From positions 1-64,000 of the forward strand of contig NZ_SKFH01000001.1 of assembly GCF_004343705.1 (NCBI RefSeq): a stretch of DNA of 64,000 nt. Direction: 5' to 3'. The notes under the pieces are model-generated. The model ran no database searches. It saw only the letters and a program-made list of their open reading frames with translations, and was not told the origin of the DNA. This document shows positions 53,207-64,000 of the stretch, piece after piece. How positions within the stretch are numbered: the stretch's first letter is position 1; each line of letters begins with the position of its first letter. The position numbers were made by a program, and so were the translations under genes. The DNA comes from Flaviaesturariibacter aridisoli (lineage in GTDB: Bacteria > Bacteroidota > Bacteroidia > Chitinophagales > Chitinophagaceae).

Positions 53207-53659
53207 TTACTCCACGATCTCGTCTACGGTCAGGCTGCGGAGCAGTGATGCTTTATCGGGCTCGAGAAAGCTGCCGATGCTGTTGTTGGTAAGGATAGCG
53301 CGTATGTGTTCCTGCACCTGACTGAAGTGCGGATGCAGCGGGCAGGGCTGTTTGCTGTCGCAGGAGCGCAGGCGGAGCACGCAGGTATGAAAGATCGCGA
53401 GCCCGTCGGTGGCCGCCAGCAGCTCAATGAGCGGCCTCTCCAGCACGGAGGGCGGCACCGAAAAGCCGCCGCGCTGCCCTTTGGAGGAATGAAGAAAGCC
53501 TTGCCGGCTCAGGGTTTTAAGCACTTTGCCCAAAAAATGTCGCGGTACGCCCAGCTCCGCCGCGAGGCTGTCGGTCTGTACGAACGCCTGCTGCTCCCTG
53601 CAGGCGGCGATGTACAAAATTCCCCGCAACGCATACCCGAACGACTTCGAAAAAAACAT
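53207..53659 (-). CDS. Rrf2-family (NsrR/IscR-like) Fe-S regulator
   Basis: A 150-residue Rrf2 winged-helix regulator. The start FFSKSFGYALRGILYIA, the recognition region SLAAELGVPRHFLGKVLKTLSRQGFLHSSKGQRGGF and three cysteines C93, C100 and C106 (spacing 6 and 5) match the cluster-binding pattern of NsrR and IscR. It is divergent from nosZ and is the obvious candidate to sense NO or Fe-S status and control the cluster. The exact class (NsrR or another) cannot be decided from the spacing alone. Confidence 0.88.
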   Translation of the reverse strand: MFFSKSFGYALRGILYIAACREQQAFVQTDSLAAELGVPRHFLGKVLKTLSRQGFLHSSKGQRGGFSVPPSVLERPLIELLAATDGLAIFHTCVLRLRSCDSKQPCPLHPHFSQVQEHIRAILTNNSIGSFLEPDKASLLRSLTVDEIVE

Positions 53660-53738: not shown

Positions 53739-53752
53739 TTGACGCCGCTCAA
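53739..53752. promoter_or_regulatory. CRP/FNR-type site TTGA-N6-TCAA
   Basis: A perfect TTGA-CGCCGC-TCAA palindrome, the core consensus of CRP/FNR family sites (FNR, DNR). Its centre, 53745.5, is about 41.5 bases before the transcription start predicted from the nosZ -7 box, the classic class II activator position. Confidence 0.55.
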
Positions 53753-53850: not shown

Positions 53851-55848
53851 ATGTTTTCCCGATCTATTTTAACCCAAGTTGGCGTCGCCGCCGTAGCGGT
53901 GGCCACGCTGGTTGGCTGCAAGCCCAAAGGCACGGCGGCTGCCGTAACGGGCGACGCGGCCTCCAAAGTGTACGTGGCGCCCGGCAAATACGATGAGTTT
54001 TACAGCATCGTATCGGGCGGCTTCAACGGCCAGATGTCGGTATACGGCATCCCTTCCGGTCGCCTCTTCCGCATCATCCCGGTATTCTCGCAATTTCCCG
54101 AAAACGGCTGGGGCTTCAGCGAAGAGACGAAGCCGATGCTCACTACCTCGCACGGCTTTGTGCCCTGGGACGACCTGCACCACATCGCCCTGTCTACCAC
54201 GGCCGGCGTGCACGACGGCCGCTGGGCCTTCGGCAATGCCAACAATACGCCGCGCATCGCCCGCATCAACCTTTCCACCTTCCGCACCGAGGAGATCCTC
54301 GAGATCCCCAACAGCGCCGGCAACCACTCCTCGCCGTTCATCACCGAGAACACCGAGTACGTGATCGCGGGTACCCGCTTTTCGGTGCCCCTCGACAACC
54401 AGAACGGCGACGTGCCGATCAGCACCTACAAACAGAATTTCAAGGGCACCGTCTCCTTTATTAAAGTGGATACAAGCGGGCATATGAACATCGCCTTCCA
54501 GCTGCGCCTGCCGGGCATCAACTTCGACCTGGCCCGCGCCGGTAAAGGCAAGTCGCACGGCTGGTTCTTCTTCTCCTGCTACAATTCCGAGAAGGCCAAC
54601 ACGCTGCTGGAAGTGAACGCGTCGGCCAAAGACAAAGACTTCATCATGGCCGTGAACTGGAAAAAGGCCGAAGAGTATGCCCGCAGCGGCAAAGGCGTGA
54701 AAGAAGCCGTTCGCTACGCGCACAATACCTATAGCGACAAAACGCACAACGCCACTTCCACCATGGAAAACTCCGTGCTGGTGCTCGATCCGAAAGATTG
54801 CCCCGACATGGTGTATTTCATCCCCTGCCCGAAATCGCCGCACGGCTGCGATGTAAGCCCCGACGGCGAAAGCATCGTAGGCTCGGGCAAGCTGGCCGCG
54901 GTGATCCCGGTTTTTTCGTTCGACAAGATCCAGAACGCGATCGCGCAAAAGCAGTTTGACGGCAACTACGACGGCATCCCCGTGATCAAGTATGAAGCTG
55001 CCCTTCGCGGCGAGGTGCAGAAGCCGGGCCTCGGACCCCTGCACACCGAGTTCGACGACAAGGGCAATGCCTACACTTCGTTCTTCGTATCGTCGGAGAT
55101 CGTGAAGTGGAGCGTGAAAGACCTGAAGGTGCTCGACCGCGTGCCGACCTACTATTCGATCGGTCACCTGTCGGTGCCCGGCGGCCCGACGGCGAAGCCC
55201 TGGGGTAAGTATGTGATCGCGTACAACAAGATCACCAAGGACCGCTACCTGCCCACGGGTCCCGAGCTGACCCAGAGCGCGCAGTTGTATTCCATCGAGG
55301 GCGACAAGATGAAGCTGCTGCTCGACTTCCCCACCGTGGGTGAGCCGCACTACGCCGAAGCGATCCCGGCCGAGCTCCTCAACAAGAAAAGCCAGAAGAT
55401 CTTCCGCATCGAAGAAAACGGCAGCCCCTACGCGGCTAAAGGCGACGCCAATGCCAAGGTGGAACGTAAGGGCAACGAAGTGCACGTGTATATGACCGCC
55501 ATCCGCTCGCACTTTACACCCGACAACATCGAAGGCGTGAAGATGGGCGATGTGGTGTACTTCCACGTTACCAACCTGGAGCAGGATTGGGACGTTCCGC
55601 ACGGCTTCGCGGTGAAGGGCGCCAACAACGCCGAGATCCTTGTGATGCCTGGTGAAACCCAAACCCTGAAGTGGACCCCCGAGCGGGTAGGCATCTTCCC
55701 GATCTACTGCACCGACTTCTGCTCGGCACTGCACCAGGAAATGCAAGGCTACGTAAGGGTATCGCCAACCGGGTCTAACGTGCCGATCTCGTTCAGCACC
55801 GGTAAAACAAGCCCCGAGCCGGCACCTGTGGCCAGCCTCGAAAAATGA
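53851..55848 (+). CDS. nosZ: Nitrous-oxide reductase, clade II (Sec-type)
   Basis: A 665-residue copper enzyme reducing N2O to N2 in the periplasm. The N-terminus is a short Sec-type signal with a lipobox-like LVGC (C23) and no twin-arginine motif, the mark of clade II NosZ. The propeller domain has PWDDLHHIALS, HDGRWAFGNANNTPRIARI, GNHSSPFITENTEYV and KSPHGCDVSPDGE, which supply CuZ histidines. The C-terminal cupredoxin domain has the CuA motif C620-x3-C624-x3-H628-x2-M631 (YCTDFCSALHQEM) and WDVPHGF. All key ligands appear intact. First gene of the cluster, divergent from the Rrf2 regulator. Confidence 0.97.
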   Translation: MFSRSILTQVGVAAVAVATLVGCKPKGTAAAVTGDAASKVYVAPGKYDEFYSIVSGGFNGQMSVYGIPSGRLFRIIPVFSQFPENGWGFSEETKPMLTTSHGFVPWDDLHHIALSTTAGVHDGRWAFGNANNTPRIARINLSTFRTEEILEIPNSAGNHSSPFITENTEYVIAGTRFSVPLDNQNGDVPISTYKQNFKGTVSFIKVDTSGHMNIAFQLRLPGINFDLARAGKGKSHGWFFFSCYNSEKANTLLEVNASAKDKDFIMAVNWKKAEEYARSGKGVKEAVRYAHNTYSDKTHNATSTMENSVLVLDPKDCPDMVYFIPCPKSPHGCDVSPDGESIVGSGKLAAVIPVFSFDKIQNAIAQKQFDGNYDGIPVIKYEAALRGEVQKPGLGPLHTEFDDKGNAYTSFFVSSEIVKWSVKDLKVLDRVPTYYSIGHLSVPGGPTAKPWGKYVIAYNKITKDRYLPTGPELTQSAQLYSIEGDKMKLLLDFPTVGEPHYAEAIPAELLNKKSQKIFRIEENGSPYAAKGDANAKVERKGNEVHVYMTAIRSHFTPDNIEGVKMGDVVYFHVTNLEQDWDVPHGFAVKGANNAEILVMPGETQTLKWTPERVGIFPIYCTDFCSALHQEMQGYVRVSPTGSNVPISFSTGKTSPEPAPVASLEK

Positions 55849-55859
55849 ATCAACCGGAT

Positions 55860-55893
55860 GGGCCGGCCCGCGCTGGCGGTGCCGGCCCTTTCT
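55860..55893 (+). terminator. GC hairpin after nosZ (attenuator-like)
   Basis: GGGCCGGC pairs with GCCGGCCC, then TTTCTC. The weak T-tract suggests partial termination or 3' stabilisation of nosZ mRNA. Confidence 0.5.
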
Positions 55894-55908
55894 CTAAAAC
55901 CCACTGAT

Positions 55909-56469
55909 ATGAAAAAACGTTTCTTCTTTGCCACGGCCACCGTACTGGCCCTTGGCATGATCTCCTGCCAGAGCGCCGAAGCACCCAAAGTGGCCGATGC
56001 CACCGAAGCGACCGCAACCGCCGGCCAGTCGGCGGTACAGGATGATGATTCGCAGAAAGACGTGGTGAAAGTAGCCGCCAGCTCGAAAGACCACAGCACG
56101 CTCGTTGCCGCCGTCAAAGCGGGCGAGCTGGTGGATGCGCTTTCGAATGCCGGACCGTTTACTGTGTTCGCGCCCACCAATGCCGCCTTCGACAAGCTGC
56201 CGAAGGGCACGGTGGAAGACCTGCTGAGGCCCGAGAACAAGGCGAAGCTGCAGGACATCCTGCAATACCACGTGTATGTGGGCAGCCTCAAAACCGACCT
56301 GATGCAGGACGGGCAAACGCTCAACCAGGTGAACGGCGGCAATATCAGCATCACGAAGAAAGACGGCAAGGTGCTGATCAACAACAGCGCGGTGATCATC
56401 GCATCGATACCGGCCTCCAACGGCATCATCCACGTCATCGACGCGGTACTGCTGCCGCCTTCTAAATAA
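55909..56469 (+). CDS. Fasciclin-domain lipoprotein in the nos cluster
   Basis: A 186-residue lipoprotein (lipobox GMISC, C20). An Ala/Thr-rich linker leads to one FAS1 domain (about 60-186) with the H1 motif GPFTVFAPTNAAFDKLP, the YH motif YHVYVGSL and the H2-like end ASNGIIHVIDAVLLPP. FAS1 domains mediate protein or surface contact. Its place between nosZ and nosL suggests a periplasmic helper for NosZ, but that is inferred from position only. Confidence 0.92.
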   Translation: MKKRFFFATATVLALGMISCQSAEAPKVADATEATATAGQSAVQDDDSQKDVVKVAASSKDHSTLVAAVKAGELVDALSNAGPFTVFAPTNAAFDKLPKGTVEDLLRPENKAKLQDILQYHVYVGSLKTDLMQDGQTLNQVNGGNISITKKDGKVLINNSAVIIASIPASNGIIHVIDAVLLPPSK

Positions 56470-56580
56470 AGAAAAGCTGCGCTTGCTCAGGCCGGGAACG
56501 CCGAAAGATCAGTTCGCGCCCGCAGCGTGCTCAGTCCATTTGCAGCTCTTTTTGGTTCTTTTTGCTTATGTGGTTCCGAA

Positions 56581-56604
56581 GCGGCCCGCGTTCGTGCGGG
56601 CCGC
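56581..56604. repeat. GC hairpin before the nosL fusion gene
   Basis: GCGGCCCGC pairs perfectly with GCGGGCCGC around GTTCGT. No T-run, so probably an mRNA processing or stability element. Confidence 0.6.
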
Positions 56605-56628
56605 CCCCCGGGATCGAAAATTCAAGTT

Positions 56629-57654
56629 ATGCAACCCAAGATGCGCCCCCTTTCCCGGATCCTGATCGCGCTGGCAGCGCTTTCCCTCGGCCTGACCTTC
56701 GTGCTGCCGGTATGGTTCATTTTCCTGATGGCGCCGCAATACCCCGAAGGACTTACGATGTACATCTGGCTCGACCGCCTGAGCGGGCAGGTAGACATCA
56801 TCAACGGACTCAACCACTACATCGGGATGAAGCACATCAATGAAAAGATGTTTCCCGAATTTCATTACCTCGGCACCATCGTGGGCGTGTTCATCGCGCT
56901 CGGCCTACTGGTAGCCGCGAGCGGGCGCCGCAAGCACCTGTTTGCCTACCTGCTGCTGCTGCTCGCCGCCGCCGGTACCGCGATGTACGACTTCTACCAG
57001 TGGGGCTACGACTACGGGCACCACCTCGATCCGCACGCCGCCATCCAGGTGCCGGGGCTGTTTTACCAGCCGCCGCTCCTGGGCCACAAGCAACTGCTCA
57101 ACTTCGATGCCTATTCCTACCCCGATACCGGTGGCTGGATCGTTATTGGCGCTGGTCTCCTGTGCTTCGCCGTATGGGGCTGGGAGCGCTTCCTGCGCCG
57201 GGGGGTGCGGCCGCAGGCAGCGGTACGGTTGCCACAGCCGGGGGCACTGGCCGCCTGCGTACTTGTAGCTGCCGCGCTGAGCGCCTGCAGCAGCGGACCG
57301 AAGCCGTTTGTGGCCGGCCGAGATGCCTGCGACGATTGCCGGATGACGATCGTGGATACGCACTATGGTGCGGAGCTCATCACCCGCAAGGGCCGCCTCT
57401 ACAAGTTCGACGACCTGCACTGCCTCGCCCGCTTCCGTAAATCGAACCCCGATGCCGCAAAGGACGCGCAGCTCTATTTCGCCGATTATACCAGCGGCAA
57501 CCTGCTGCCGGCGGCCGCGGCCTGGAGCCTGACCGACTCTTTTTATAAAACACCCATGAACAGCCACAGCGTTTCCTTCGCCAGCCGCGCCGCTGCCCTC
57601 GCCGAAGGAAAAGGCACACCGACACAAGGCGCGGAGCTGCTCGGCAAACTGTAA
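56629..57654 (+). CDS. nosL: Membrane protein (NosB-like?) fused to NosL copper chaperone
   Basis: A 341-residue fusion. Residues 1-200 are a membrane protein with helices at about 10-34, 82-98, 103-121 and 168-186, and conserved-looking stretches (APQYPEGLTMYIWL, LNHYIGMKHI, YDFYQWGYDYGHHLDP). This may correspond to the extra membrane protein NosB of clade II clusters. After a helix at 205-219 comes LSAC (C220), exactly where a separate NosL would have its lipobox. It continues into a full NosL domain with C234-x2-C237-R-M239 and the later MNSHSVSFAS motif, which deliver Cu(I) to NosZ. The ATG at 56629 begins the first helix. Confidence 0.88.
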   Translation: MQPKMRPLSRILIALAALSLGLTFVLPVWFIFLMAPQYPEGLTMYIWLDRLSGQVDIINGLNHYIGMKHINEKMFPEFHYLGTIVGVFIALGLLVAASGRRKHLFAYLLLLLAAAGTAMYDFYQWGYDYGHHLDPHAAIQVPGLFYQPPLLGHKQLLNFDAYSYPDTGGWIVIGAGLLCFAVWGWERFLRRGVRPQAAVRLPQPGALAACVLVAAALSACSSGPKPFVAGRDACDDCRMTIVDTHYGAELITRKGRLYKFDDLHCLARFRKSNPDAAKDAQLYFADYTSGNLLPAAAAWSLTDSFYKTPMNSHSVSFASRAAALAEGKGTPTQGAELLGKL

Positions 57655-57657
57655 GTT

Positions 57658-58899
57658 ATGCGTCTCCTGACCCTGCTTGTATTTCTACTGTCGGCCGCCA
57701 TCGCGCGCGCCCGCACTATCGAGGTGGGTCCGGGCCTCCCTGTGCGCACACTGCGCGAAGGCATCGCCCTTGCCCGCAACGGCGACACGGTGCGCCTGCA
57801 CGCCGGCACCTACCGCGAAGGGAATATCGTGCTGCGCAAATCCATTACCCTGCTGGGTGTGGGCGGGCCGCTGCTGGACGGCGAAGGCCGCTTCGAGCAA
57901 CTGACACTGTCGGGCGCTTTTATCCGCGTGCAGGGCCTTCGCTTTACCGGCACCGGCTTTTCGAGCCTGAACGACAATGCGGCGATCAGCGTCATCGACG
58001 CCCACGACGTGGTGCTGGCCGGCAACGAGATCCGCAATGCCTTCTTCGCCATCCACGTGGCCAACGCACGCAACTGCATTATCGCCGGCAACCGCATCGC
58101 TGGCATCGCCCGCACGGAGCAAACATCCGGCAACGGCATCCACCTCTGGAAGTGCGACCGCATGCAGGTGTTGAGCAATGATGTGCAGGGCCATCGCGAC
58201 GGGATATACTTCGAGTTCGTAACCAATTCGGCTATCCGCAGCAACGTCAGCCACCACAACATCCGCTACGGGCTGCACTTCATGTTTTCCAACAACGACA
58301 GCTACGTGGGCAACACCTTCTCCGCCAACGGCGCGGGCGTGGCGGTGATGTATTCGCACCACGTGCGTATGGAGCGGAACGTATTCCAGCGCAACTGGGG
58401 CGCCAATGCCTACGGACTGCTGCTGAAGGAGATCTCCGACGCGCAGATCGGCGGAAACCGCTTCGAAGCGAACACGGCCGGCATCCTGATGGAAAGCACC
58501 AACCGCATCGATGTGGTGGCCAACATCTTCCGGGCCAACGGCTGGGGCCTGCGCATCTCGGCATCGTGCAACGACAATACCGTGCGGCAGAACAACTTTC
58601 TGGGCAACACGTTCGATGTGGCCACCAACGGCGAACTGATGCTGAACCGCTTTTACAACAACTACTGGGACAAATACGACGGCTATGACCTCAACCGCGA
58701 CGGCACCGGCGACGTGCCCTACCACCCGGTGAGCCTTTACTCGATGATCATCGAACGCAACCCGCAGTCGGTGATCCTGCTCCGCAGCTTCATGGTGACG
58801 CTGCTCGACAAAGCGGAGAAAGCCATGCCCAGTCTCACGCCGAACGGGATGGCCGACAGCACCCCGCTCATGAAACCGTACCACAATGATCCACATTAA
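57658..58899 (+). CDS. nosD: NosD periplasmic copper-site maturation protein
   Basis: A 413-residue periplasmic protein with signal peptide (1-18, ending ARA) and a right-handed beta-helix built of CASH/NosD repeats: VLAGNEIRNAFFAIHVANARNCIIAGN, YGLHFMFSNNDSYVGNTFSANGAGVAVMYSHHV, GILMESTNRIDVVANIFRANGWGLRI. The typical C-terminal NNYWDKYDGYDLNRDGTGDVPY is present. NosD works with NosF and NosY to build the CuZ centre. It is 3 bases after nosL and overlaps nosF by 14. Confidence 0.95.
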   Translation: MRLLTLLVFLLSAAIARARTIEVGPGLPVRTLREGIALARNGDTVRLHAGTYREGNIVLRKSITLLGVGGPLLDGEGRFEQLTLSGAFIRVQGLRFTGTGFSSLNDNAAISVIDAHDVVLAGNEIRNAFFAIHVANARNCIIAGNRIAGIARTEQTSGNGIHLWKCDRMQVLSNDVQGHRDGIYFEFVTNSAIRSNVSHHNIRYGLHFMFSNNDSYVGNTFSANGAGVAVMYSHHVRMERNVFQRNWGANAYGLLLKEISDAQIGGNRFEANTAGILMESTNRIDVVANIFRANGWGLRISASCNDNTVRQNNFLGNTFDVATNGELMLNRFYNNYWDKYDGYDLNRDGTGDVPYHPVSLYSMIIERNPQSVILLRSFMVTLLDKAEKAMPSLTPNGMADSTPLMKPYHNDPH

Positions 58900-59641
58900 C
58901 AACATCAGCAAGCGCTTTCGCAAGCTTGTTGCTCTCGACGCCATCAGCACCGCCTTTGCCGCCGGCCGGGTGGTAGCGCTCGTGGGCCCCAACGGCTCGG
59001 GCAAGACTACCCTGATCAAAACGATTCTCGGGCTCGTGCGCCCGGACAGCGGCGTGGTGACGTTCGACGGGCAACCGGTGGCCGGCGACAGCGCCTACCG
59101 GAGCCGCATCGGCTACATGCCGCAGATCGGCCGCTACCCCGACAACATGACCATCGGCCAGCTGTTTCGCATGATCCGCGACCTGCGCGGAAGCGAAGCG
59201 CGCATCGACGAAGAGCTGTATTACCAGTATAAGCTCGACACCCTGTGCGACAAGCCGATGCGCGGACTTTCGGGTGGCACGCGCCAGAAGGTGAGCGCGG
59301 CGCTCGCCTTTCTCTTCGATCCACCGGTGCTCATCCTCGACGAGCCCACCGCCGGCCTCGACCCGCTGGCGAGTGAAGTGCTGAAGAAAAAGATCCTGCG
59401 CGAAAAAGCGAAGGGCAAACTGATCCTGATCACGTCGCACGTGCTCTCCGACCTGGAGGAAGTAACTACCGACGTGCTCTTTCTGCAGGACGGCCGCATC
59501 CTGTTCCAGGAAACCGTGGGTGCCCTGCAGCGCCTGACCGGCGAGCTGCGCCTGGGCAAAGCCGTGGCCCACCTGATGCAGCACGGACTGCAGGGGGCCA
59601 GCCACGAATTTCTTTACGTCAAAATTTCGAACGGATCATGA
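58886..59641 (+). CDS. nosF: NosF ABC transporter ATPase
   Basis: A 251-residue ATPase with Walker A GPNGSGKTT (34-42), signature LSGGTRQKV (G-T in place of G-Q, usual for NosF), Walker B VLILDEPTAGLDP and the H-loop ITSHV. With NosY it forms the ATP-driven complex that acts on NosD. It overlaps both neighbours, indicating coupled translation. Confidence 0.95.
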   Translation: MIHINNISKRFRKLVALDAISTAFAAGRVVALVGPNGSGKTTLIKTILGLVRPDSGVVTFDGQPVAGDSAYRSRIGYMPQIGRYPDNMTIGQLFRMIRDLRGSEARIDEELYYQYKLDTLCDKPMRGLSGGTRQKVSAALAFLFDPPVLILDEPTAGLDPLASEVLKKKILREKAKGKLILITSHVLSDLEEVTTDVLFLQDGRILFQETVGALQRLTGELRLGKAVAHLMQHGLQGASHEFLYVKISNGS

Positions 59642-60405
59642 TGAAGATATCCCGCTATGTGTTGTACGACATCCTGCGCAACAAGGTGGTGCTGGCCTAT
59701 ACGGCCTTCCTGCTACTGGTGTCGCTTAGCCTGTTCCAGCTCGAGGAAGATTCCTCCAAAGCGGTGCTCAGCCTGCTGAACATCATCCTGATCGTGGTGC
59801 CGCTGGTGAGCATGGTCTTCGCTACCATACACTGGTACAACTCCTACGAGTTTCTCGAGTTGCTGCTGACGCAGCCCCTGAGTCGCGGCAAAGTGTTTCT
59901 GTCGGAATGGGCGGGGATCTCGTCGTCGCTGCTGGTAGCTTTCCTCGTAGGCGTGGGCATCCCGGTACTTATTTACAACGGCAACGCCACGGGGCTGTCG
60001 CTGCTGCTGGTCGGCAGCCTGCTCACACTGGTGTTTACCTCGCTGGCCTTTCTCGCCTCGGCGCGCAGCCGCGACAAGGCCCGTGGCATCGGCGCTGCGT
60101 TGCTCATCTGGTTTTATTGTGCGCTGATCTACGACGGCCTGTTGCTGCTGTTGCTTTTCGCCTTCGCCGACTACCCGATGGAGACGCCGACGCTCGTGCT
60201 TTCCTGCCTCAATCCCGTGGACCTGGGGCGGATCTATATCATGCTCCACCTCGACGTGAGCGCTCTTATGGGCTATACCGGCGCGCTGTACAAAGACTTT
60301 CTCGGAACCGCCGCCGGCACGGTGCTCACACTCGGTGTGCTGGTGCTTTGGGTGCTGCTCCCGCTGTACTGGGCGTTGCGCATCTTCAGGAAAAAAGACC
60401 TCTGA
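59638..60405 (+). CDS. nosY: NosY ABC transporter permease
   Basis: A 255-residue inner-membrane protein with six hydrophobic helices. It opens with ISRYVLYDILRNKVVLAYTAFLLLVS, has the NSYEFLELLLTQPLSRGKVFLSEW motif typical of ABC-2/NosY permeases, and LNPVDLGRIYIML. The start overlaps the nosF stop by 4 bases. Confidence 0.94.
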   Translation: MMKISRYVLYDILRNKVVLAYTAFLLLVSLSLFQLEEDSSKAVLSLLNIILIVVPLVSMVFATIHWYNSYEFLELLLTQPLSRGKVFLSEWAGISSSLLVAFLVGVGIPVLIYNGNATGLSLLLVGSLLTLVFTSLAFLASARSRDKARGIGAALLIWFYCALIYDGLLLLLLFAFADYPMETPTLVLSCLNPVDLGRIYIMLHLDVSALMGYTGALYKDFLGTAAGTVLTLGVLVLWVLLPLYWALRIFRKKDL

Positions 60406-60441: not shown

Positions 60442-60807
60442 ATGGTACGGGTACTGATCGCTTTATGCCTGCTGGCAGCTTATGCGGGCTACAGTGCGCT
60501 GGTCTATACCCGCGGCACTGACGCGCCGGCGGCGCCACCGGTGTGGACGGCGGAGGCCGCCGCGGGGAAGCGGCTTTTCCAAAAACACAACTGCACCGCT
60601 TGTCACCAGCTCTTTGGCCTGGGCGGCTACCTCGGTCCCGACCTGACCACGGCCTGGAGCGACTCCACGCGCGGCCCTGCTTACCTGCGGGCCCTGCTCC
60701 AATCGGGGGGCAGCCGCATGCCGAATTTTCATTTCACACCCGGAGAGGTAGAAAGCCTGCTGGCCTACCTGCGCTCCATAGATGCTTTCGCACATGAGCA
60801 ACCCTGA
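60442..60807 (+). CDS. NorC-like membrane-anchored cytochrome c
   Basis: A 121-residue monoheme cytochrome. An N-terminal membrane helix (3-22) is followed by heme motif C51-T-A-C54-H55 and a distal methionine, probably M93 in SRMPNFHFT. The pattern CHQLFGLGGYLGPDLT and MPNFHFTPGEVESLLAYLRSID is that of NorC, the cytochrome subunit of NO reductase. Its reading frame overlaps the NorB-like gene. It would carry electrons to the partner or on to NosZ. Confidence 0.9.
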   Translation: MVRVLIALCLLAAYAGYSALVYTRGTDAPAAPPVWTAEAAAGKRLFQKHNCTACHQLFGLGGYLGPDLTTAWSDSTRGPAYLRALLQSGGSRMPNFHFTPGEVESLLAYLRSIDAFAHEQP

Positions 60808-62206
60808 CGCTCTTTATCGACGCTCCGACCGCATCGCGCTGGCCTTTGTGGCCCTGGCACTCTGTTACCTGCTGCTCGGCCTCAGCTTCGGCTTGCTCGG
60901 CGGATTGCAGTACGTGCTGCCTGCCTTCCTGCGCACGCAGCTGGCCTTTCAGAAAACGCGGCCGCTGCATGTATACCTTGCGACTTCCTGGATCTTCACG
61001 GCGGCGCAGGCGGGACTGTATTTCTACGTGCCCCGCGTGGCGGGCCGGCCGCTACGCTGGCCAAAAGGGGGCTGGCTCCACTTCGCACTGCAGGTAGTGA
61101 GCTCGCTTCTCATCATCGGCTGCTTCTTCGCCGGCCGCTTCGGCGGGCGCGAGTACCTGGAATTTCCACCGGCCCTTGGGATGCTCATCGCCCTTTCGTG
61201 GCTGCCACTCGCTGTCAACTTCTTCGCTACGCTGCGTCCTCGCTTCCGCAGGGCGCCGGTTTATTATTTCAGCTGGACAGCCGGGCTCCTGTTCTTCTTC
61301 ATCACCCTATCGGAAAGCTACCTGTGGGTGTCCGACTACTTTTTCGGCAACCCGGTGCGCGACGTGACGGTGCAGTGGAAGGCCCTCGGCTCGATGGTCG
61401 GCAGCTGGAACATGCTGATCTATGGTTGCAGCCTGTACGTGATGCAACAATTGAACGGCGACAAGAAACTGGCGCAGGGACGGACCGCTTTCTTCTTTTT
61501 CTTCCTTGGGTTTACCAACCTGCTGTTCAACTGGGGGCACCATACCTACGTGGTGCCGGCTGCGCCGTGGGTGCGCAGCGTGTCGTATGCCATCAGCATG
61601 ACTGAGCTACTCCTGCTGGCGCAATTGCTGTTCAAATTCCGGCGCACAATGAGCGAAGCGCGGCGCCGCTTTCACAGCCTCACGTTCCGGTTGCTGTCGC
61701 TGGCCGACGGCTGGATCCTGCTGAACCTCGTGCTCGCGATCGCGCTGTCGGTGCCCGCCATCAACCGCTATACGCACGGTACGCACATCACCGTTGCCCA
61801 TGCCATGGGCGCCACCATCGGCATCAACTCGATGCTGCTACTCGCTTCTATCAGTTACATGCTTACGCGCGCCCGGCCGCAGGGTTTCGCCCGTGAAGAA
61901 ACGCGTATCAAGCTGGGCGTGTGGATCAGCAACGGGTCGCTGCTGCTGTTCTGGATCTCGCTGCTGGGGAGCGGACTGGTGAAGATCGCCGGGACCTCGT
62001 CGGGGCAGTCGTTCGCTACCATCATGCAACGCGCGGCGCCCCTGTTTCGCCTGTTTGCCGGCAGTGGTGCTTTTCTCTTTGCCGGCCTCGCGCTGATTGT
62101 GGTGTCCCTGTTGCGCGTGTTGTGGTGCCGCGAGCCGAAGACCGTGCAGGATCCGGTGGTTCGGAGCGTTGTGGTCGCAGAGCCCGCCGCAGGCATCCTG
62201 CGCTAG
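60794..62206 (+). CDS. NorB-like heme-copper protein with altered metal ligands
   Basis: A 470-residue membrane protein with about twelve helices, homologous to NorB/cbb3 subunit I. Recognised sites: H59 in helix II (RPLHVYLATSWIF), the FeB pair H249-H250 (WGHHTYVVPAAPWV) and H336 in helix X (THGTHITVAHAMGA). By eye, cNOR has HLWVEG in helix VI and AHGH in helix X. Here helix VI (KALGSMVGSWNMLIYG) has neither the histidine nor the glutamate, and the second helix X histidine is M338. So one FeB ligand, the catalytic glutamate and one low-spin heme ligand appear lost. The ATG at 60794 overlaps the cytochrome by 14 bases; an ATG at 60782 is possible. Confidence 0.85.
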   Translation: MSNPDALYRRSDRIALAFVALALCYLLLGLSFGLLGGLQYVLPAFLRTQLAFQKTRPLHVYLATSWIFTAAQAGLYFYVPRVAGRPLRWPKGGWLHFALQVVSSLLIIGCFFAGRFGGREYLEFPPALGMLIALSWLPLAVNFFATLRPRFRRAPVYYFSWTAGLLFFFITLSESYLWVSDYFFGNPVRDVTVQWKALGSMVGSWNMLIYGCSLYVMQQLNGDKKLAQGRTAFFFFFLGFTNLLFNWGHHTYVVPAAPWVRSVSYAISMTELLLLAQLLFKFRRTMSEARRRFHSLTFRLLSLADGWILLNLVLAIALSVPAINRYTHGTHITVAHAMGATIGINSMLLLASISYMLTRARPQGFAREETRIKLGVWISNGSLLLFWISLLGSGLVKIAGTSSGQSFATIMQRAAPLFRLFAGSGAFLFAGLALIVVSLLRVLWCREPKTVQDPVVRSVVVAEPAAGILR

Positions 62207-62298: not shown

Positions 62299-63186
62299 AT
62301 GAAACCGCTTTCCGTCCTGTTTTTACTGCTGGCCCTTTCAACCGCGCCGGCGCGCGCCTGCGACATATGCGGCTGCGGCGTGAGTTACTATAATCCCAAC
62401 CTGTTTCCGCACCTGTCGAAGAATTTCGTTGGCCTCAGTTACCTGCATCGTCTTTACCACACGGCGGGGCACGGGGGCAACGTGGGCACGGAACGATACA
62501 ACAGCTTATTGCTTACCGTGCAGTATGCAGCCGGCAAGCGTCTTAAGCTCGTGGCTTTGCTTCCCTGGCAATTCAATACGCTGCGCAATGACGCGGGGGC
62601 ACGCACGCTGAGCGGCGCCGGCGACGCAACGCTGCTGGCGCAATACCGCTTGTGGGATCGCAGCAGCGATAAGGGGGTGCGCCAGGTGTTCGTGGCCGGT
62701 GCGGGTGTGAAGCTTCCGTCGGGAAGCTATACCGCGGCCGCGGCGTCCAAGATCGAGGAACAAAACTTTCAGCTGGGTACGGGCAGTACCGATGTGCTGC
62801 TCAACGGCGTATACCGCCTCAGCGTGCGGCACTGGTCGCTGAGCGCCACCGGGTCGTATAAATACAATACGGTGAACCGGGACGGCTTTCGCTACGGCGA
62901 CGTACTCAACACGGGCGTACAGGCGGCCTTCCGCCGCGAGCGGCGCAACTGGTCGCTCACGCCTTACCTGCAGGCCAGCGGCGAATGGCAGCTGACCGAC
63001 GCCAGCAACCACGTACTTCAGCCCGACTCGGGCGGCGAGGTAGTGTATGCCGGCGGCGGCGTCGACTTCAATACCCGCAAAGTGTCGCTGGGTGTCAACT
63101 ACCAGGCGCCCATCGCCCAGCACCTGGCCGGTGGCCTCGTGCAGGTGAAGCCGGGCTTTTCGGTACGGACCACTTTTCTTTTCTGA
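62299..63186 (+). CDS. Outer-membrane transporter-like protein with CxxCxC start
   Basis: A 295-residue exported protein. A signal peptide (1-20, ending RA) is followed at once by C21-D-I-C24-G-C26, then a beta-barrel-like chain (FVGLSYLHRLYHTAGHGG, KLVALLPWQFNTL, GVKLPSGSY, GVNYQAPIAQHLAGGLVQVKPGFSVRTTFLF). The barrel resembles the phenol-degradation MetA-type/transporter group. The cysteine cluster and nearby histidines suggest metal binding, and the position after nos genes suggests copper, but this is inference. A near -7 box, GACCTTTG, is at 62270-62277. Confidence 0.75.
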   Translation: MKPLSVLFLLLALSTAPARACDICGCGVSYYNPNLFPHLSKNFVGLSYLHRLYHTAGHGGNVGTERYNSLLLTVQYAAGKRLKLVALLPWQFNTLRNDAGARTLSGAGDATLLAQYRLWDRSSDKGVRQVFVAGAGVKLPSGSYTAAAASKIEEQNFQLGTGSTDVLLNGVYRLSVRHWSLSATGSYKYNTVNRDGFRYGDVLNTGVQAAFRRERRNWSLTPYLQASGEWQLTDASNHVLQPDSGGEVVYAGGGVDFNTRKVSLGVNYQAPIAQHLAGGLVQVKPGFSVRTTFLF

Positions 63187-63664: not shown

Positions 63665-64000
63665 ATGAGAAATGCGTTTCTGACCATGGCGCTGGGCGCC
63701 TGTAGTTTGCTCGCGGTTTCCTGCGGTTCGGACTCCGGCAATTCTGCGCCGGAAAGCTCGCCCCCCGCAACCACTACCACCGACGCGGGCAGCACGGGAA
63801 GCACTGAGGCCGCCGCCAGCAATCCCCACGGCATCGGGCCGGTAACCGAGGTTAAGCTGAACAATCCCCTCGACTCAAAACTCGTTGCCGGCGGCAAGAG
63901 CATTTATGAAGTGAAGTGCGGCTCCTGCCACAAACTCTCCGGCGAAAAGCTGGTGGGCCCGGGCTGGAAAGGCGTCACCGACCGCCGCAAGCCGGAGTGG
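63665..64000 (+). CDS. Lipoprotein c-type cytochrome (partial, runs off the window)
   Basis: The first 112 codons of a cytochrome c gene, open to the window end. A signal sequence with possible lipobox cysteines at C13 or C20 is followed by a Ser/Thr/Ala-rich linker. The heme domain begins NNPLDSKLVAGGKSIYEVKCGSCHKLSGEKLVGPGWKGVTDRR, with C85-x2-C88-H89. This form is common next to nosZ in Bacteroidetes and is a good candidate electron donor to NosZ. The distal methionine lies beyond the window. Confidence 0.85.
   Translation, partial: MRNAFLTMALGACSLLAVSCGSDSGNSAPESSPPATTTTDAGSTGSTEAAASNPHGIGPVTEVKLNNPLDSKLVAGGKSIYEVKCGSCHKLSGEKLVGPGWKGVTDRRKPEW

Follow-up and report, generated by a model that had tools for sequence, protein, structure and literature searches.

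The enzyme encoded by nosZ destroys the greenhouse gas nitrous oxide (N2O), and to our knowledge the route by which electrons reach clade II NosZ in the Bacteroidota is unsettled. The DNA analyzed here (the window) comprises positions 1-64,000 of the forward strand of contig NZ_SKFH01000001.1 of Flaviaesturariibacter aridisoli (GCF_004343705.1; Chitinophagaceae, Bacteroidota), and it is closed by a clade II nos cluster. In this cluster nosY, which ends at 60405, is followed after a 36-base gap by two open reading frames (ORFs) that share 26 bases and encode a NorC-like cytochrome (60442-60807) and a NorB-like heme protein (60782-62206). The question raised by this locus is what such a membrane complex, encoded next to nosZ genes and resembling a nitric oxide (NO) reductase, does. 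The spacing to nosY and the overlap between the two genes indicate that the pair is part of the nos operon, confirming the position right after nosY that an original prediction, made from the DNA alone, had pointed out; the same prediction described the two proteins as fused in translation, whereas they are encoded by two overlapping genes. As a conserved, non-canonical NorCB adjoining nosZ, the pair is a concrete candidate for the path of electrons to clade II NosZ, in a phylum that accounts for 70.6% of the clade II metagenome-assembled genomes (MAGs) in PMC11409646 and for 53% of the 'terminators' in PMC12569097.

Ligand residues of the NorCB-like pair

The 474-residue NorB-like protein (60782..62206, plus strand; an alternative start at 60794 is possible) is a multi-helix heme protein that matches Pfam COX1 (PF00115) with an E-value of 6.7e-37 and 127.8 bits against a cut-off of 34.8, which, together with Foldseek matches, assigns it the heme-copper oxidoreductase superfamily fold. 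In Pseudomonas aeruginosa cytochrome c-dependent NO reductase (cNOR), the non-heme iron (FeB) is bound by His207, His258, His259 and Glu211, and the low-spin heme b is a bis-His heme (His60/His349). The NorB-like protein retains His63 (60968..60970), the predicted low-spin heme ligand, His253-His254 (61538..61543), the remaining two FeB-type histidines, and His340, a ligand of the high-spin type of heme, which is followed by Ala341 and Met342 (61799..61807). Its helix X motif accordingly reads AHAM, as opposed to AHGH in cNOR, with Met342 in place of the second helix X His. These residues had been correctly read in the original prediction, which numbered them from the internal Met5 (H59, H249-H250, H336 and Met338). 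Glu275 (61604..61606) aligns with the Glu of the cNOR 'ALEP' motif, a Glu that does not appear in the aligned cbb3 rows shown.

Helix VI (residues 191-215, VQWKALGSMVGSWNMLIYG; 61352..61426) contains no His and no Glu, so the missing FeB ligands are unavailable in any alignment register, and the absence of the helix VI FeB His and Glu, first claimed by eye, holds in both alignment methods. HMMER with the family profile places P. aeruginosa NorB His207 on Gly203 and Glu211 in a one-residue gap just before Gly207, and MAFFT, in three modes, places His207 on position 202, Glu211 on Val206 and the CuB His of cbb3 oxidases on Gly203. Position 202 varies across rows (Tyr 33, Leu 25, Asn 19, Met 11, others 5). 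PMC10256718 describes a conserved Trp482 near the non-heme metal, four residues ahead of helix VI His486, and this Trp-to-His spacing makes the invariant Trp199 of the NorB-like protein fit a register with Gly203 in the place of the His and Gly207 in that of the Glu.

The equivalents of His207 and Glu211, half of the protein ligands that FeB has in cNOR, are hence lost, leaving His253-His254 only; one of the three His positions of the second metal site of catalytic heme-copper enzymes carries no His; and the low-spin heme, bis-His in cNOR, by sequence keeps His63 and has Met342 at the position of its second ligand. What the sequences retain is the heme c site of the partner protein, plus one histidine ligand each for the high-spin-type and the low-spin heme. 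The P. aeruginosa NorB residue aligned with Glu124 (92 of 93 rows) is Glu135, which we assign to the Ca site linking the two b hemes, although the wording of PMC10256718 is ambiguous as to the subunit.

The partner (60442..60807, plus strand) is a NorC-like monoheme cytochrome c of 121 residues (Pfam Cytochrome_CBB3/Cytochrom_C), with an N-terminal hydrophobic anchor, a CTACH heme site and Met93. Its identification as NorC-like stands: CxxCH and the Met are present in all 87 aligned rows, as in the heme c subunit of cNOR. A NorC-like match was found at 86 of 88 loci, lying at a few of them 3-6 kb off with other genes between, and the NorC-like gene directly precedes the NorB-like gene at 63 of 80 loci. 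Beta-eliminating-lyase (tryptophanase-like) genes stand between the two at L044, L100, L034 and similar loci.

Conservation was assessed on relatives from a genome collection, in which 554 stretches fitted the family patterns; a NorB-like relative is encoded by 526, and 80 of these were kept as loci, three titled as Proteobacteria MAGs and the remainder as Bacteroidota or groups within it. In the resulting alignment of 95 rows, which holds the window twice as well as a few near-copies and in which 1-3 incomplete rows are gapped at any column, His63, Trp199, Lys200, Gly203, Gly207, Asn210, His253 and His254 are invariant (93/93 rows with a letter), as are Glu275 (94/94) and His340 and Met342 (92/92 each). 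This near-universal conservation identifies the altered ligand set as shared by the whole family rather than an error in this one sequence. The invariance of His253-His254, Trp199 and Glu275 suggests that something near the second b heme may still be under selection. Recent local decay of a Bacteroidota cNOR is ruled out by the distance to the aligned Bacteroidota cNORs, by the invariant family-specific residues and by the 526 related stretches.

Relation to NO reductases and cbb3 oxidases

The best sequence matches of the NorB-like protein in the PDB are cNOR NorB chains (3o0r, E-value 2.3e-12, or 7.2e-25 with the family profile; 4xyd), followed by cbb3 oxidases. Its AlphaFold2 model (pLDDT 87.5, pTM 0.88) resembles both about equally: Foldseek superposes cNOR chains with a root mean square deviation (RMSD) of 2.8-2.9 (3o0r_B, TMq 0.81, RMSD 2.9; 4xyd_A, RMSD 2.8) and cbb3 chains with an RMSD of 3.1-3.9 and TMq of 0.78-0.84, the two lowest E-values being those of cbb3 chains. 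The NorB fold is thus present, without the fold comparison separating cNOR from cbb3. A quick tree of 59 rows, including 10 Bacteroidota cNORs, 6 cbb3 oxidases and aa3 oxidase (L145 was left out), joins the family with cNOR, apart from cbb3 and aa3 (SH-aLRT support 93), and gives the family its own branch with a support of 74. Given this lower value and the long, saturated inner branches, the tree neither establishes nor contradicts the proposal that the protein evolved from an NO reductase.

The sequence itself mixes cNOR-like and cbb3-like motifs. With cNOR (NorCB; 3o0r, 4xyd) the pair shares the heme c subunit, the NorB fold, the THGT...AH motif of helix X, HHxY, Glu275 and the GRE motif of P. 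aeruginosa NorB; it differs in the two lost FeB ligands, in the Met at the second low-spin-heme position, in an identity of 22% to 3o0r in the Foldseek alignment and in its separate group in the tree. With CcoN of cbb3 oxidases it shares the fold (highest TM-score 0.84, 8smr_E), VQW in helix VI, RPLH in helix II and G-x-N after the helix X ligands, in contrast with Gly203 at the helix VI CuB His, Met at the low-spin position and the lack of CcoO and CcoP among the neighbor genes examined. Only two NCBIfam models match, both for cbb3 and far below their cut-offs: ccoN reaches 46.1 of 583.15 bits with the window protein, and is matched by 40 of the 42 family members (best E-value 8.9e-19). A structure alignment (A3) comprised 42 hand-picked rows, three references that contain a stop codon having been left out.

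NO dismutase carries a fused N-terminal domain on a NorB core. Quinol-dependent NO reductase (qNOR) shares the NorB-like core but has chains of 708-754 residues in the Foldseek matches and a fused N-terminal domain (PMC10256718); here 474 residues leave no room for a fused domain, and the heme c protein has its own gene. Membership in one of the newer NOR families, offered by the original prediction as a second option, fits poorly. These families are described as related to B-family oxidases (PMC11388526), and the second subunit of sNOR, gNOR and eNOR is described as a cupredoxin (PMC8756737), as opposed to the heme c partner and the cNOR/cbb3-like sequence found here; the separation from these three follows published descriptions. 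Several of eNOR, sNOR, gNOR, nNOR and bNOR do resemble the NorB-like protein in having variant active-site residues (Table A4 of PMC8756737). As regards nNOR and bNOR, the observation is that the best PDB matches of the NorB-like protein are cNOR and cbb3. The pair is built like cNOR, yet by its predicted ligands should not be filed as cNOR, two defining features of which it lacks. Literature searches returned no title or abstract describing this family, subscription literature being mostly outside their reach.

Distribution and putative role

The NorB-like gene is patchy across the phylum (8 of 395 genomes, that of F. aridisoli included) and is carried by 62 of 324 genomes of the family Chitinophagaceae. 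Carriers were assigned by score (best E-value <1e-60) and not aligned singly, frames with reported stops or partial length counting as present; cNOR/qNOR were called by a match to a three-row cNOR profile at an E-value of 1e-60 or 1e-50, which distant qNORs may escape; and NirK was counted above its curated cut-off, which leaves out weaker matches in 12 more genomes (4 of them carriers). NosZ is encoded by 52 of the 62 carriers, compared to 124 of 262 non-carriers (Fisher p 9e-8), NirK by 16 of 62 compared to 22 of 262 (p 6e-4), and cNOR/qNOR by 9 of 62 compared to 3 of 262 (p 3e-5), all uncorrected for kinship. NosZ or NirK occurs in 58 of the 62 carriers; 53 have no detected cNOR/qNOR, 45 of the 62 show no NirK and no NOR, and 41 encode NosZ while no NirK or cNOR/qNOR was detected in them. 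In at least 18 of the 62 carriers the NorB-like gene lies within 16 kb of nosZ. A strict partnership with NosZ is rejected, since 10 carriers lack NosZ (6 of these have NirK) and 124 of the 176 NosZ genomes lack the NorB-like gene.

Because true NOR and the NorB-like protein co-occur above expectation, the latter does not simply replace the former. At least four carriers (G504, G578, G630 and G674) have the NorB-like gene and a true cNOR on the same contig, no more than 9 kb apart. In G504 (contig C53) and G578 (contig C2) NirK is close by as well, all three falling within about 11 kb, so that variant and canonical forms coexist. Among the collection loci, 50 of the 80 were used for the corresponding counts, with NosZ in 38 of the 50 genomes and a cNOR/qNOR match in 3. 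The F. aridisoli genome (completeness 95.7%) has three COX1-family matches, one being the NorB-like protein and the other two presumably oxidases of the aa3 and cbb3 types, and no match for other cNOR/qNOR, NirK, NirS or NrfA, so that the organism looks like an N2O-only reducer. The family was not seen on plasmids: 62 plasmid records matched, all below 60% identity, and the 12 listed share 24-25% identity and carry either the name cbb3 oxidase or no annotation; one scan of viral contigs found no relative of the NorB-like protein.

Members of the family appear to be annotated as a conventional NO reductase in some bacteria that consume N2O. Cloacibacterium, a genus under test for cutting farm N2O emissions (PMC11168931), carries the NorB-like family in 5 of 7 genomes, and the seven yielded no cNOR-like match, their other matches being frames of 575-762 residues, while a similar profile (A1) does recover true cNORs, about 450 residues long, from other genomes. 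C. normanense encodes NosZ and has no cNOR/qNOR match at 1e-50. In PMC11879220, one Cloacibacterium branch combines cnorB and clade II nosZ with a lack of genes for nitrate and nitrite reductases, norB is missing in the other branch (sp002337005, C. rupense), and cnorB transcripts, like those of nosZ, drop at high oxygen, those of cnorB to <2 TPM (transcripts per million); strain CB-01 is credited with cNor and 'minor NO reductase activity' (PMC11168931). The split between five carriers and two non-carriers resembles these norB-bearing and norB-lacking branches. Given this pattern, the lack of cNOR-like matches and the C. normanense result, the published Cloacibacterium cnorB (PMC11879220, PMC9239227, PMC11168931), treated there as an NO reductase gene, very probably belongs to the NorB-like family, a match made through genomes of the genus. 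The norB counts of Bacteroidota surveys such as PMC11409646 may likewise include this family; PMC12569097 states that sequences without conserved ligand-binding domains were excluded. Genomes that are norB-positive, Cloacibacterium included, may consequently be without NO reductase, which shifts the counts of N2O producers versus pure N2O sinks.

Taken together, these data lead us to assign a probability of about 0.4 to the reading that the pair is a b/c-type electron-transfer complex on the NorC/NorB scaffold, not a canonical NO reductase, serving periplasmic N-oxide reductases and mainly NosZ. It is suggested by the absence of FeB ligands amid conserved residues around the lost positions, by the invariant CxxCH and Met of the NorC-like protein and the retained Glu124, by the place in the nos operon, the nos-linked loci (22 of 80) and the enrichment of NosZ among carriers, by the 41 carriers with NosZ and neither NirK nor NOR and the F. 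aridisoli genome without Nir, NrfA or other NOR, and by the 'minor' activity of CB-01 and the joint fall of cnorB and nosZ transcripts at high oxygen. Electron transfer had already been proposed in the original prediction, as a conduit to NosZ; such a role is plausible, but the distribution does not tie it to NosZ alone.

In such a complex, the low-spin heme would be held by His63 and Met342 and have a raised potential, and the FeB cavity would be shut by packing of Gly203xxxGly207, as judged from the residues. The second b heme would no longer form part of a binuclear centre, and His253 or His254 may cap it. Quinol or a periplasmic donor would supply the electrons, which would reach small periplasmic cytochromes by way of the b hemes and heme c. 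These cytochromes would in turn deliver them to N-oxide reductases, chiefly NosZ and in some cases NirK, and low O2 would induce the genes, perhaps through regulators of the Crp/Fnr or Rrf2 type. Somewhat more tentative is the wider proposal that a separate lineage on the cNOR/cbb3 side gave up the binuclear centre and became a membrane electron-transfer complex (heme c, a His/Met heme b and a second heme b) for N2O respiration, and partly nitrite reduction, in many Bacteroidota, where it is counted as cnorB; if so, many of the N2O sinks in this phylum that are credited with NO reduction would lack that ability.

Several points weigh against electron transfer. The heme content, redox potential, quinol site and partner are all predicted; NosZ does not need the pair, as 124 of 176 NosZ genomes are without it; and the co-occurrence tests ignore phylogeny. 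The invariant His253-His254, Trp199 and Glu275 would not obviously be required by a pure wire, and the flanking genes for the di-iron protein RIC/ScdA (21 of 80 loci) and for Rrf2 regulators (19 of 80), given here as raw counts, fit NO equally well, as does the contig stretch shared with a true cNOR in at least four carriers.

It is nearly as likely, and still short of an even chance, that the pair is a non-canonical NO-handling enzyme, either a slow NO reductase or an NO detoxifier. Next to the high-spin-type heme, His253, His254 and Glu275 could provide a 2-His-1-carboxylate metal site at which NO would be reduced or captured with electrons donated by the NorC-like subunit, and the invariance of these three residues, of Trp199 and of His340 speaks for this reading. 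Flanking genes for RIC/ScdA, Rrf2 and Crp/Fnr point the same way, as do the frequency of NirK among carriers (8 of the 16 with NirK have no other NOR detected), the position of the NorB-like gene with NirK and true cNOR inside about 11 kb in two carriers (G504, G578) and within 9 kb of true cNOR in two more (G630, G674) and the 'minor' NO reductase activity stated for CB-01 in PMC11168931, where the identity of the gene is our inference. Such an enzyme would, however, work without the helix VI His and without the Glu that PMC10256718 calls 'essential and fully conserved' in NOR, in other words by an NO chemistry lacking residues held essential. Moreover, 45 carriers have neither NirK nor NOR and thus no NirK-borne NO (NirS was checked in the F. 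aridisoli genome alone), and nine carriers also hold a true cNOR/qNOR.

A role as a heme-based sensor of NO or O2, or as a factor for NosZ assembly or protection, with no steady electron transfer, is unlikely. The place among the NosL, NosD, NosF and NosY genes and, at other loci, near regulators would suit it, and a heme left open by the absence of FeB could bind NO, but the heme c partner retained with a full ligand set (86 of 88 loci; adjacent at 63 of 80) argues for electron flow. By far the least credible reading is an ordinary cNOR with a misaligned helix VI, which we reject even though relatives are apparently printed as cnorB (PMC11879220) and cNOR is among the closest folds, as helix VI is devoid of His and Glu, whatever the alignment, and Met342 occupies the low-spin His position in 92/92 rows.

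The nos cluster and the neighbors of related loci

The nos cluster that contains the electron-transfer candidate reads, in order, Rrf2 (minus strand), nosZ, a fasciclin-domain gene, the NosL gene, nosD, nosF, nosY, the NorCB-like pair, a gene for an outer-membrane-like protein and a cytochrome c lipoprotein-like ORF; the nos genes, the fasciclin-domain gene, the NorCB-like pair and the cytochrome ORF are on the plus strand. The Rrf2-family regulator (53207..53659; Pfam Rrf2), divergent from nosZ, has three clustered Cys (CVLRLRSCDSKQPC) and is possibly a sensor of NO or of Fe-S status. The upstream region common to it and nosZ holds a TTGACGCCGCTCAA palindrome at 53739. The clade II (Sec-type) nosZ (53851..55848) scores 917.5 bits with NCBIfam TIGR04246 (cut-off 625) and is followed by the fasciclin-domain gene (55858..56469; PF02469), with homologs at 8 of the 88 examined loci. 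The next gene (56527..57654) encodes a Pfam NosL domain with an N-terminal membrane part, which we take to be NosB-like. Downstream lie nosD (57658..58899; TIGR04247, 414 bits, cut-off 300), nosF (58886..59641), encoding an ABC ATPase (ABC_tran), and nosY (59638..60405), encoding an ABC-2 permease (ABC2_membrane_2), the last two named from their position.

Beyond the NorB-like gene, the outer-membrane-like protein (62299-63186) has CDICGCG near its start and a relative close to the NorCB-like genes at 5 other loci; a Pfam scan of this protein gave no match. The cytochrome c lipoprotein-like ORF (63665..64000, continuing beyond the window to 64159) belongs to a cluster (cluster 9) found at 16 of 80 loci, a family located by nosZ elsewhere, and is likely an electron partner.

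Across the 80 loci, whose flanks are often cut by contig ends, nos genes flank 22, in at least three gene orders. The other frequent neighbors, as raw counts without a background rate (within three genes in brackets), are Crp/Fnr 30 (20), RIC/ScdA 21 (8), Rrf2 19 (14), proline dehydrogenase 16 (16) and B12-dependent ribonucleotide reductase 15 (8). Crp/Fnr and part of the Rrf2 group (cluster 33) were named by eye, and RIC/ScdA, one Rrf2 cluster and proline dehydrogenase by Pfam; the Crp/Fnr and ribonucleotide reductase labels are our assumption. Proline dehydrogenase directly follows the NorB-like gene at 13 of 80 loci and, with the tryptophanase-like genes noted above, may point to a link with amino-acid catabolism. 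Upstream of the NorC-like gene, the classical FNR box TTGA-N6-TCAA occurs at 1 of 63 loci (0.6 expected), and the looser core TGA-N6-TCA at 29 of 63, compared to 5.5 expected from mononucleotide shuffling, the loci being related.

Two further membrane proteins are encoded on the minus strand of the same contig beyond the window. At 64213-65436 (L158) lies a gene for a 408-residue protein. Its family recurs among the flanking genes of 15 of the 80 loci, in many cases with nosZ on one side and the NorC-like gene on the other; the family representative carries an HAHSH motif and matches COX1 (PF00115) below the cut-off. The second gene (65933-67138) encodes a hydrophobic protein with a helix of the HGNFMVNGFLASL type, by eye reminiscent of NnrS, and a homolog lies downstream in L022.

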